Source of the DNA: a virus
Direction: 5' to 3' (one strand)
Virus record (IMG/VR): IMGVR_UViG_3300034152_000186
Span: 1-30,139 of that record
Length of the DNA stretch: 30,139 nucleotides
Position numbers and translations under genes: made by a program. This document shows positions 3,409 to 7,768 of the stretch, piece after piece (position 1 is the stretch's first letter; each line of letters starts with the position of its first letter). Under the pieces are notes generated by a model. It was not told the origin of the DNA. It did not search any database and saw nothing but the letters and a program-made list of their open reading frames with translations.

Positions 3409-4461
3409 TTACGAGAATTCTAACTCAACACACTGGTCAGTATCGGCAACAATTGCACCGTAAGCTGTCCAGTATGTGCGAATCTCGCTAAGCGTTTCAA
3501 TATCACGTTCCTGCAAGCCTAACTCTCTAAGATAGACAGCATTTTGGATCTTGTGACCAGGAAGGATCAACAACGCTGTATCAGCAGTGATTGCACTATT
3601 GTAGGTAAAACGTGGTTGCACGTTATACTCAACTACTTGACCAGCAGTGGAAGTAGCAGCACCATCACGCCTACCACCAATAATTTCTGCACGTGTTGCA
3701 CGTAGTGCCTGCATAATGCGTGCTTTCAGATTCGGTGATGCATACAAGAGCATCATGACGTTAGCAACATCACCATAACCCTTGTCTTTCACTGCTTCAC
3801 CGATTGTTTGATATCCTTCATTAATCGTAGCTATGTCACGATCAATAATAGGATCAGTAGCGGCACCACTCCAAGAAATAGCAGTCAAGGTAGCAGCAGC
3901 TTGCAAAAGCGTGTAGTGCGTATCTGCCCAATTGCCGTTAAGCTTTGCACGTACCTCATTCATCAAGTTGATAAACTGGTAAAGCTTGCGTCCTTCAATC
4001 ATTTCCCAAGTAACGCCAACGCCCATACCATACTTGTCAATCTTAGCGTCAACAACACTACCAGACACGCTATAGATCTTACATTTGCCACCTTCAGGTA
4101 CTAGCTCTACCGTCATGCCAGTTTCAACATCAGCAATTTCCCACTGAAGTTGTCCCTGCATAAGTCTGACACCTTGAAAAGATTCTTGCCACCAAGTATC
4201 AAACTCAGGTACAGCATGTGTCACATTAAACACATCTTTAGTAAGTTGTGGTAAATCAGCGCTACCCGAAAACGCTTGTATCACAACGTCTTGCTCTCTA
4301 TCATACTTTCCGCTTGACTGCATAAAAGCCTGAATAGCTTGTTTAACAACATTAATCTGCTGTTGCTTATTCAGTTTTAGAGTGTCACTGAAAGCATAAT
4401 CACCACCTATCTTATAACCGTGATAGATGATATCAAAAACCCGTTCAAGATCAACGTTCAC
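3409..4461 (-). CDS. Major capsid protein (HK97 fold)
   Basis: 350 aa, starting at GTG (4461) with GGAGGT 8 nt upstream. The length and sequence character fit an HK97-type coat protein: an N-terminal helical arm, an E-loop region around residues 100-150 (GMTVELVPEGGKCKIYSVSG), a spine-helix-like segment (LYQFINLMNEVRAKLNGNW), and a C-terminal P domain with DTALLILPGHKI then RTYWTAYGAIVADTDQCVEL. The last segment, an A-domain strand ending near the C-terminus, is common in such proteins. It sits between the decoration gene and the connector genes. No separate HK97-type delta domain is obvious; scaffolding is probably supplied by the gene at 4849-5895. Confidence 0.8.
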   Translation of the reverse strand: MNVDLERVFDIIYHGYKIGGDYAFSDTLKLNKQQQINVVKQAIQAFMQSSGKYDREQDVVIQAFSGSADLPQLTKDVFNVTHAVPEFDTWWQESFQGVRLMQGQLQWEIADVETGMTVELVPEGGKCKIYSVSGSVVDAKIDKYGMGVGVTWEMIEGRKLYQFINLMNEVRAKLNGNWADTHYTLLQAAATLTAISWSGAATDPIIDRDIATINEGYQTIGEAVKDKGYGDVANVMMLLYASPNLKARIMQALRATRAEIIGGRRDGAATSTAGQVVEYNVQPRFTYNSAITADTALLILPGHKIQNAVYLRELGLQERDIETLSEIRTYWTAYGAIVADTDQCVELEFS

Positions 4462-4473
4462 GCTTATACCTCC

Positions 4474-4848
4474 CTATGCTTTCAGGAATGCAGCAAAGCC
4501 GTCAAAGTTGACAACAGCTTCCAGCACCGTAGCTGCTACGTCTTCTGCTGCATAACCACAAAGATCAAGTGCACCAGCAACATTAGAGAACCAACTATTA
4601 CCATCGTCCCAATAGATAGCTTCTCCAGGTGCCCACACTTCACCAGTATTCTTGATCACCTTAACTCTATCAGCCTTAGTGATCAGTGCAGCAGTTTCAC
4701 CAGCAGCAACCATAGCAGCAGTTACCTCAGTGAGATAGAAGCCGTTAACTTCGTTATACTTCTCTACCTCACCAGCAACTACAGCAGCAGCAGGAGCAAC
4801 GCGAATCTCTTCATAAGATTTTCCGAGTAGTTCACACTCTTTCGCCAT
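4474..4848 (-). CDS. DUF2190-type capsid decoration / head-associated protein
   Basis: 124 aa. The sequence has the hallmark of the DUF2190 family: a beta-barrel with AGEVEKYNEVNGFYLTEV, VWAPGEAIYWDDG and a terminal GALDLCGYAAEDVAATVLEA segment (YWD then G-x-A). Members lie next to major capsid genes and are thought to decorate or stabilise the capsid. The start (ATG 4848) directly abuts the stop of the upstream gene. It is alanine-rich. The role is inferred from family and position. Confidence 0.7.
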   Translation of the reverse strand: MAKECELLGKSYEEIRVAPAAAVVAGEVEKYNEVNGFYLTEVTAAMVAAGETAALITKADRVKVIKNTGEVWAPGEAIYWDDGNSWFSNVAGALDLCGYAAEDVAATVLEAVVNFDGFAAFLKA

Positions 4849-5895
4849 TTATTTCACTCCCATGAGTTTTAGTGCTTCTTCTTCAACACTATCCGAAGCA
4901 CTATCAGTTTCATTCCCTTTATTGACAGTGGTTTCATCAGTTTCAACATTAAAGAGTTTAGCTGTCTCTGTGAAATCTTTCTTAGCACTGTCAACAAACT
5001 CTTTGATACCCTTATCCGTCAAGTCTTTAAGACTATCAGGATTGAAGCGTTTTGTGATAAACGCTTTCTGTTTGTCTGTTAGACCATCCAAGTGTGTGTC
5101 AAGCTGCTCTCTTGCATTCTTAACATCAAGATTTCTCGCTATTTCTTTACCCTTAGTTTCAATCTCTTCTTTCTCTTTAGTTAAGTTCTCAACTTGTTCT
5201 TTCAATACCTCATTTTGTGTAAACAACTTACCAAATACCTTGTCACTTTTCATAACCTCTAAATCAAACAATTGATGTGGAAAAATGTTAAGCTCTTTAA
5301 CTGCTTTCTGCACATCATGAAATGTAATCTCCATCTTACTACCTCCATCGTCATTACTAGTGCTTTCTCCAAAGCACTGTATCATTCCCAATCTTAACGC
5401 ACCAGGGAAAGCAGGACTATCTTTATCACTGCTTCCAAGTGCGATACCTGTAACATCGTTGATATCGCTAACGGTATCATCATCAGCATAAATATCAGCT
5501 TCCATGCTACATACATCCATCTCATTTACTTTTTCTTTATTCGGAAAATGACCAATAATAATATTAGACAGCTTACCTCCAATATCTCTAACAAAAGAAG
5601 CCAAAACCTCGCCAACGCTTTGTCTATTAGTATGACTATTAGTTTCAGCGTGACCAACGAAAAACTTGGTACCAGCTTTAATCTTCTGTGCTATCTTCTG
5701 AATTACTGCTCTTGTCCACTTCAGTGCTTGTGTCCCTTGACCCAACACTTTCGGTTGACTCATTCCTTCTTGTGCTAACGTGTACGCTTGCAGTATCCCT
5801 TTCCCCTTCAATTGTTCTCTCTTCTCTGCTGGTATCTTTTCTAGTAGTTCTTTTTCGTTCAGGCTTAGCTCCAAGGCTTGTATAAGTATCTTCAT
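4849..5895 (-). CDS. Capsid maturation protease fused to scaffold (candidate)
   Basis: 348 aa. The N-terminal half (about residues 75-190) contains FFVGHAETNSHTNRQSVGEV, then GALRLGMIQCFGES, a compact beta-rich domain with a conserved H and S/G arrangement that could be a prohead protease. The C-terminal half (about 225-330) is a charged coiled coil (LTKEKEEIETKGKEIARNL and following), as in scaffolding proteins, and ends in an acidic tail. A protease followed by a scaffold coiled coil, just upstream of the decoration and capsid genes, is a known arrangement. The start is supported by AAAGGA 8 nt upstream of ATG 5895 and an in-frame TAG just before it. The first 218 nt overlap the upstream gene in another frame. 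The protease class is not certain. Confidence 0.55.
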   Translation of the reverse strand: MKILIQALELSLNEKELLEKIPAEKREQLKGKGILQAYTLAQEGMSQPKVLGQGTQALKWTRAVIQKIAQKIKAGTKFFVGHAETNSHTNRQSVGEVLASFVRDIGGKLSNIIIGHFPNKEKVNEMDVCSMEADIYADDDTVSDINDVTGIALGSSDKDSPAFPGALRLGMIQCFGESTSNDDGGSKMEITFHDVQKAVKELNIFPHQLFDLEVMKSDKVFGKLFTQNEVLKEQVENLTKEKEEIETKGKEIARNLDVKNAREQLDTHLDGLTDKQKAFITKRFNPDSLKDLTDKGIKEFVDSAKKDFTETAKLFNVETDETTVNKGNETDSASDSVEEEALKLMGVK

Positions 5896-6136
5896 CGGCC
5901 ATTCCTTTAAGAAACAAATCTTCTAAGTACTGTGTTAAAACACGAATTGTTTCTTGATATTTTTCACGTTTAACTGTAAGCCGGATAACTCCATCTTTCG
6001 CAAATAATGGATTATCCTTAGCAACTACATCTAAACGAGGTACCGTAATAGTGACAAGAGCACCACTTGTAATATTAGCAATAACTCTTTCACCATCAGG
6101 TGTTGATACTTTCAAAGGACGTTGATAATAATTCAT
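5678..6136 (-). CDS. Unknown capsid-module protein with overprinted C-terminal tail
   Basis: 152 aa. Residues 1-80 look like an ordinary folded domain (MNYYQRPLKVSTPDGERVIA, then YQETIRVLTQYLEDLF). From about residue 81 the frame lies inside the next gene (5678-5895) and becomes low-complexity, rich in S, T, E, D and R (VGSRDTSTEVDKSSNSEDST). The downstream gene starts inside it with its own ribosome site. The tail is therefore either a real disordered extension encoded by overprinting or a by-product of a distant stop. The function is not recognised. The ATG at 6136 follows an AGGGAA site and overlaps the stop of the upstream gene by 4 nt. Confidence 0.6.
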   Translation of the reverse strand: MNYYQRPLKVSTPDGERVIANITSGALVTITVPRLDVVAKDNPLFAKDGVIRLTVKREKYQETIRVLTQYLEDLFLKGMADEDTYTSLGAKPERKRTTRKDTSREERTIEGERDTASVHVSTRRNESTESVGSRDTSTEVDKSSNSEDSTED

Positions 6137-6402
6137 TTATCGTTTCCCTTTTTTAGTATCTCTATCTCAGTTTTCAATTTAGCGTTTTCTTCTTGTGCAA
6201 GATTGTCAGCTTCTTCCATCTCTTGTATTCGAGTTTCTAGCTCTTCAATCTTAGATTCTAGTTTCTTACGCTCTCTAGCACCAAGTGCTTTCTTTTCTTC
6301 CTGTTTAGTGGCACGTACCCTATCACCAAGTATTTTTTCGTACCTTTCAGGATCTCTTTTCAATAACGCTTCAGGCACCGTTATTACTTTGCTCTTGTCC
6401 AT
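6133..6402 (-). CDS. Small coiled-coil protein between portal and capsid module
   Basis: 89 aa, predicted to be almost entirely helical. After a short N-terminus (MDKSKVITVPEALLKRDPER) there is a long charged coiled coil with heptads such as KLESKIEELETRIQEMEEA. It starts 32 nt inside the end of the portal gene, after a GAAGGGGAAGAAG ribosome site, and ends with an ATGA-type overlap on the next gene. The position between portal and protease/scaffold suggests an assembly or internal scaffold role, but no family is recognised. Confidence 0.6.
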   Translation of the reverse strand: MDKSKVITVPEALLKRDPERYEKILGDRVRATKQEEKKALGARERKKLESKIEELETRIQEMEEADNLAQEENAKLKTEIEILKKGNDK

Positions 6403-7768
6403 CTTCTTCCCCTTCTTCTGTAAATGGTATTATAGTGTTAGTTTTTAAACTCTGTTCATCTTTGGCTTTTTCTTCATCTATCATTTTCTCAGTTTCATAT
6501 GGATTAATACCAGGAAGCATGTTTCTGTAATCCCCCATGGATATTGCACCATCACCAAATGCAAGTGACAAGCCTTTAACTCTATTTAGAAACTCTGCAA
6601 AGTCAATTAACGGTAAACGCACCTGAAAAGCAGGATCTAATCTGTTTAATCCTTCACCACCACTGTCAATAAAAATCTCTTGTGCTTGAAAGATCATCTC
6701 ATAAAGCGATTCTTCCCAAATCTGCCTTTCAAGAATAGTCGCTTGTTTAATCAACTCATAAAGCGTTTGTGCAGTAGCACGATTTGACATTAAATCAACA
6801 TAACCTAACCAGTGAACAGGAACACCAGTTACAGAAGAAATAGTCTTTATTGTAGCAACTAATTCAGTGTTAAGATTATCATACGCACCAGTACCAGGAG
6901 TTTCATAGCCAAACAAAGCCTTTCCAATAAACATATCGCCAATCTTCCATCGTTGTTGATCTAGCTGTGATTGTAAAGCCTTTGTTTCGCTATCAGACTC
7001 TGTTTTAATTGTCGGTGTAATACGTGCAAAGATATGATTGTTTCTTCTCATATCTCTAATAGCACGATCATAATTCTCGATATCCGTTAGCACGGTACCT
7101 GTTCTTGTTACTGGTCCTTCACTGCTTGCATCATCACCACCAGTACGAATATATTGAAAATTAGTTAATGTTAATGCTTCCCACTGTCCATTACGTTTAA
7201 CCTGTATTCCTATAACTTCATCACGTAGTGAATTATCACGAAAGACAGGTTTAAAAGGATTAGTCAACAGATACGGTATTCTCAACAACTTAACAAATAC
7301 ACTATCATCTTTCCATCGCTTAGGAGTTAGCACAAACAACGATTGTCCAGACAATTCACTACCTTTAACAGAATTAGTGAATTGACTACCATTCATTCTG
7401 TTTTTCTTTAATAAATCATTAATCCATTCTGCTGTGTTTTCGTCTTCACAAGTAACGCTAATTCCTTCACCAGCAATAAACGCTGTACGCAAATCAACAA
7501 TAGCTCTAACTTGCTGGTTACCAAAATCTGTTAATCCATTATACTTACGATACATTTCACGTGTTTGTGAATCATATGATTGAAACGCATTAGACACACC
7601 AGGAATAGAGATATTAAGCCTAGCACCTGATAACATACTCTCAATTATAAGGTTGCTTCTAGCACCTTCAGGTGTAGATCCCTGTAGTTGAATCTCACGA
7701 ATCAACTTATGAGTAATACGTATTGCTTTTGTCGATTTACGCTTTTTGAACCAGTCAAGTAAAGCCAT
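6371..7768 (-). CDS. Portal protein
   Basis: 465 aa. The portal ring is the DNA entry and exit channel at one capsid vertex. Sequence support: an N-terminal clip/wing region (SYDSQTREMYRKYNGLTDFG and VRAIVDLRTAFIAGEGISV), IPYLLTNPFKP, a central YDRAIRDMRRNNHIFAR, a stem/tunnel-like ISSVTGVPVHWLGYVDLMSN, then ERQIWEESLYEMI, and an acidic disordered C-terminus (EEGEEDGQEQ). The segment around VTGVPVHWLGY is characteristic of SPP1 gp6/HK97-like portals. It lies between the small beta protein and the coiled-coil gene, two genes downstream of TerL. The start overlaps the previous stop as TAATG. Confidence 0.85.
   Translation of the reverse strand: MALLDWFKKRKSTKAIRITHKLIREIQLQGSTPEGARSNLIIESMLSGARLNISIPGVSNAFQSYDSQTREMYRKYNGLTDFGNQQVRAIVDLRTAFIAGEGISVTCEDENTAEWINDLLKKNRMNGSQFTNSVKGSELSGQSLFVLTPKRWKDDSVFVKLLRIPYLLTNPFKPVFRDNSLRDEVIGIQVKRNGQWEALTLTNFQYIRTGGDDASSEGPVTRTGTVLTDIENYDRAIRDMRRNNHIFARITPTIKTESDSETKALQSQLDQQRWKIGDMFIGKALFGYETPGTGAYDNLNTELVATIKTISSVTGVPVHWLGYVDLMSNRATAQTLYELIKQATILERQIWEESLYEMIFQAQEIFIDSGGEGLNRLDPAFQVRLPLIDFAEFLNRVKGLSLAFGDGAISMGDYRNMLPGINPYETEKMIDEEKAKDEQSLKTNTIIPFTEEGEEDGQEQSNNGA

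Follow-up and report, generated by a model that had tools for sequence, protein, structure and literature searches.

Does a head gene of this tailed phage really continue for 218 nt inside the next gene in another frame, or is the longer frame an accident of sequence or assembly? The locus lies in IMG/VR record IMGVR_UViG_3300034152_000186, of which positions 1-30,139 were analysed (the window, i.e. the whole 30,139-nt stretch). An earlier note had claimed that the gene starting at 6136 runs 218 nt into the gene starting at 5895 in a different frame, and this proved correct to the base. We think it likely that the overlap is a real dual-coding region. Sequence comparison shows both frames to be maintained; gene 2 would start independently inside the disordered, overprinted C-terminal tail of gene 1, and gene 1 would encode a head-morphogenesis factor.

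Geometry of the overlap and the head cassette

The two genes share a strand and occupy different frames; the overlap, counted with the gene 1 stop codon, and its signals are as follows.

5678..6136, minus strand: gene 1, small head-module protein (152 aa, ATG start; predicted folded domain of about 85 residues plus overprinted tail; homologues in 19 other lineages)
4849..5895, minus strand: gene 2, protease-scaffold-like protein (348 aa, ATG start; phrog_24820, an unnamed family)
5678..5895, minus strand: dual-coding overlap of 218 nt (encodes the gene 1 tail together with residues 1-72 of gene 2)
5903..5908, minus strand: AAAGGA, Shine-Dalgarno-like site of gene 2, within gene 1 (AAGG-type site in 20/20 lineages)
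5923..5925, minus strand: in-frame TAG, upstream bound of the gene 2 frame, 10 codons upstream of the gene 2 start

Gene 2 had been credited with its own AAAGGA site and an in-frame TAG just upstream, and both were found (at 5908-5903 and 5925-5923). As read from the window sequence, codon position 1 of gene 2 coincides with position 2 of gene 1, so that the largely free third bases of gene 2 are the first bases of gene 1 codons.

Both genes belong to a minus-strand head cassette with the order terminase, small unknown gene, portal, small coiled-coil-like gene, gene 1, gene 2, decoration protein, major capsid protein, connector-like gene and minor head protein. The neighbours referred to below are these.

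6371..7768, minus strand: portal-like gene (phrog_27684, phrog_64)
6133..6402, minus strand: small coiled-coil-like gene upstream of gene 1 (ATGA contact with gene 1; 32-nt overlap with the portal gene)
4474..4848, minus strand: decoration protein (Phage_cement_2, phrog_122)
3409..4461, minus strand: major capsid protein (Phage_capsid_4, phrog_24071, phrog_1650)

Some of these neighbours vary among relatives. The small coiled-coil-like gene encodes 79 aa in L002 and 135 aa in L001, and the decoration gene of L001 (6287-7273), which carries an extra C-terminal part, encodes 328 aa instead of the window's 124. In two relatives no stop interrupts the gene 1 frame for a long way upstream of the likely start (L014 1660-1869, about 70 codons; L002 2966-3112, about 49 codons); these stretches run over the coiled-coil-like gene and could be open by chance.

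Constraint on the gene 1 frame among relatives

Relatives were collected by scanning IMG/VR with queries for the two overlapping genes, the portal and the capsid protein. One lineage (L026/L071) was first found through a search of its own record, and one IMG/VR scan with the gene 2 query alone gave no relatives. Before counting, we removed further loci from a contig already represented and any locus that matched a retained one at 99.8% identity or more over 650 nt (L013, L017-L020 and L023 in all). Also removed were L039, whose gene 1 protein is the same as that of L016, L007 and L065, whose stretch lacks the overlap region, and L054 and L076, where no gene 1 homologue was seen. Besides the window, 19 distinct lineages cover the overlap region of both genes. 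The copies compared were either near-identical or came from lineages at 86% identity and below; in the start region the closest pair of the 20 lineages is 86% identical and the median pair 65%. Among named phage genomes, neither the two overlapping genes nor the portal had a relative at the limits used, and the capsid query found MACPNOA1 as its sole match there. Portal and gene 2 queries against species genome contigs gave no relatives.

The overlap was retained in all 20 distinct lineages of this uncultivated tailed-phage family, window included. Its length is 218 nt in 14 of them, 230 in four, 272 in one and 263 in another (L073), where gene 2 shares just 37% identity with the window's copy. 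Retention is not a search effect, since several lineages were reached through portal or capsid queries and not through gene 1. For the earlier note, relatives in which gene 1 stops around 5895 would have refuted the overlap; there are none, the frame being open in 20/20. A read error or indel, its other concern, is ruled out by the same arrangement in 19 further distinct IMG/VR lineages, which are separate assemblies.

To quantify the constraint, the gene 2 protein was held fixed and its codons were replaced at random by synonyms, with frequencies taken from codon usage beyond the overlap. All 20 lineages served for the tests of stops, of T at junctions that cannot form stops and of charge pattern; 14 were used for raw third-base identity, composition and the gene-start control, 14 for the codons around the gene 1 stop, and the 12 with full-length gene 2 for the frame-similarity and permutation tests. 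L012 and L021, cut short in gene 2, were usable for the overlap and offer little or no outside region.

No stop was observed in the gene 1 frame across the overlap in the 20 lineages, where the randomisation predicted 106.3. At the stop-forming phase, T before AA, AG or GA occurred at 0/454 positions in the overlap and at 627/2055 beyond it (20 lineages; a 14-lineage version was also run). As such a T is wholly absent from 20 diverged lineages, this result depends little on their independence. T was also depleted at junctions that cannot form stops, being lower in 19/19 testable lineages (Mantel-Haenszel odds ratio 0.36; z -8.6, a score that assumes independent lineages, which these are not fully). 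The depletion is not general to gene starts, because 50 other long ORFs from the 14-lineage set, compared over their first 70 codons, gave an odds ratio of 0.97. The composition of the gene 1 tail was shifted as well: F, Y, W and C together made up 1.8% of it, compared with 9.1% expected from stop-free synonymous recoding (14 lineages), and Asp, Glu and Gly were more frequent than such recoding predicts. These sequence comparisons indicate that the gene 1 frame is selected to stay open across the overlap.

We also looked for conservation of individual residues. The gene 2 protein is conserved within the overlap. Raw third-base identity was not raised there (0.51 vs 0.53 expected from outside; 14 lineages). 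After permutation, the position-specific third-base identity excess was 0.083 for overlap codons 1-70 (12 lineages) and 0.042 for codons 15-70, the latter vs 0.028-0.036 in four gene 2 control stretches. The similarity excess was as large in the unused third frame (z 10.7) as in frame 1 (z 10.5), hence it is not specific to the latter; these scores carry the same assumption of independence. No conservation of the charge pattern of the gene 1 tail was detected in the 20 lineages. Beyond about 14 codons, residue identity in the tail is no clearer than background, while its composition departs from expectation. The third-base, permutation and frame tests together suggest that the first 14 or so overlap codons, where the gene 2 start region meets the end of the gene 1 domain, are tightly held, and that the remaining tail is kept open and hydrophilic, not maintained residue by residue.

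Such a pattern could also arise if translation alone mattered: ribosomes on gene 1 would cross the gene 2 start, keep it unfolded or occluded and thereby determine how much gene 2 product is made, leaving the tail as a by-product. The little residue-specific conservation in codons 15-70, in a frame held open in all lineages, is what this explanation predicts, but plain openness needs neither the T depletion at junctions unable to form stops nor a composition that departs from the stop-free expectation, and a shorter overlap would do equally well. We therefore consider it unlikely. Programmed frameshifting, in which the open gene 1 frame would let ribosomes shift into that of gene 2 and produce a fusion of the two proteins, is very unlikely and not favoured. 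The frames are indeed one step apart and both open over the whole overlap, but an ATG and an AAGG-type site specific to gene 2 are present in 20/20 lineages, the codons before the gene 1 stop vary among 14 lineages with no shared slippery run visible by eye, and third-base identity peaks at the start of the overlap, not at its end. A chance ORF extension or sequencing error, with gene 1 ending near 5895 and the rest untranslated, is next to impossible: out-of-frame reads of coding DNA can give S/T/R-rich tails, and the window taken alone would be open by chance with P about 0.002 under the same randomisation, but the absence of stops across the 20 lineages refutes it.

Predicted products and origin of the tail

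The dual-coding reading gives gene 1 a product of two parts. AlphaFold2, run on a 14-row gene 1 alignment and read in ten-residue blocks, gave pLDDT values of 83-95 for residues 1-80, 52 at 81-90, 49 at 91-100 and 39-44 beyond, with confidence falling just where gene 2 begins. The predicted product is thus a folded domain of about 85 residues, then a hydrophilic tail of about 67. That the gene 1 tail is the overprinted side, as the earlier note had proposed, fits its disorder-type composition and low pLDDT. The tail appears to be selected for openness and against aromatic residues and cysteine, with little selection on residue identity, which is what a disordered linker or binding tail would show.

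No fold or family was found that names gene 1. Its model had no significant Foldseek match in PDB or BFVD, and PDB held no sequence relatives of the gene 1 or gene 2 alignments. Two candidates from VIA-align were rejected. An ArfB/YaeJ hydrolase domain was the top row (Z 6.0), and type III secretion chaperones scored about 5. Both are below Z 8, the level under which, according to the tool, a match may reflect common arrangement only, and gene 1 shows no GGQ motif. The gene encoding the tail is placed between the portal and protease-scaffold genes, which suggests a partner among these; gene 1 may accordingly be a small head-morphogenesis factor that partners the portal or the scaffold.

Gene 2 matched phrog_24820 in 13/14 copies and had no Pfam match; its structure model was weak, and a fold search with it gave no significant match. 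A protease role is suggested by its position, its coiled-coil C-terminal half and its alignment to distant genes, in which His82 is invariant (five rows, 13-15% identity). An internal in-frame start precedes the coiled-coil half.

4849..5334, minus strand: probable scaffold product in its own right, initiated at Met188 of gene 2, an internal in-frame ATG with GGAGG at 5346-5342

An internal ATG or GTG with an SD-like sequence stands at the same place in 12/12 copies that reach it, so this start probably yields a separate, nested scaffold protein. The locus would then probably give three proteins: gene 1, gene 2 and the internal scaffold. Some ribosomes would initiate gene 2 independently at the AAGG-type site inside gene 1, while others would stay in the gene 1 frame until its stop codon, which lies 218 nt downstream. 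Translation of gene 1 would give the small domain with its disordered tail, and this factor would be made alongside the protease-scaffold and, probably, the internal-start scaffold product. A further step, possible though on the unlikely side, is that the tail acts on the very protease-scaffold written in the same bases, for example as a docking tail or cleavage substrate. Gene 1 would then be a new assembly factor, and three assembly proteins would be drawn from two frames and one internal start.

Which frame is older can be approached through two distant phages with related capsid proteins, L054 (MACPNOA1) and L076. Each has a protease-like gene that aligns with the N-terminal region of gene 2 at 13-15% identity and that shares 4 nt with the gene preceding it (by the annotation of L054; in L076 if the inferred GTG start is used). 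The earlier note had described the overlapped part of gene 2 as a normal domain. This agrees with the phrog_24820 match, which begins at residue 25, inside the overlap, and with the low-identity alignment of the N-terminal region to protease-like proteins of these phages, which are without the 218-nt type of overlap. Both observations favour gene 2 as the older frame, and the gene 1 tail may have arisen by overprinting it. No homologue of the tail was seen in the searches, and no tail-less gene 1 was found either.

Comparison with known systems

Well-documented out-of-frame overlaps in tailed phages are found among the spanins, whose two-component genes are overlapped (P2) or embedded (lambda Rz/Rz1); the +1 arrangement is common among spanin pairs, and gene callers often miss them (PMC6139136). 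As with spanins, one stretch here specifies two proteins in different frames, and each has a start of its own. Spanins, however, are membrane proteins of the lysis cassette, whereas the present genes belong to the head module, between the portal and decoration genes, and neither protein has a hydrophobic N-terminal signal by eye. The overlapped part of the upstream protein, gene 1, is moreover predicted to be disordered. In the C/Nu3 pair of lambda, the scaffold is nested in frame through an internal start. Gene 2 resembles this in its internal in-frame start with an SD-like site before the coiled-coil half (12/12 copies); unlike that nesting, the gene 1/gene 2 overlap is out of frame and involves the upstream gene.

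The closest named counterpart is Microcystis phage MACPNOA1 (KY697807). Its capsid protein is distantly related (27.5% identity), and upstream of the capsid gene stand, as here, a decoration-like gene and another that can be aligned with gene 2 at 15%. What precedes this protease-like gene, in contrast, does not resemble gene 1 on inspection by eye, and the two share just 4 nt. The protease-like gene itself (L054 4797-5882) is annotated as nicotinate-nucleotide diphosphorylase, a name we find doubtful because the gene precedes the decoration and capsid genes.

Two papers give a wider frame: 84% of annotated virus gene overlaps are shorter than 50 nt (PMC7017920), and overlapping genes are enriched in disorder-promoting residues (PMC6195259). 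No account of the gene 1/gene 2 overlap was found in the excerpts of the literature searched. The overlap is of a kind already known in tailed phages and is unusually well supported here. It offers a natural example of a disordered tail overwriting the start of a conserved protein, retained in 20 diverged lineages. Annotation programs easily overlook or shorten long, statistically firm out-of-frame overlaps of tailed-phage structural genes, and trimming gene 1 at 5895 or shifting the gene 2 start downstream would misannotate this phage family.
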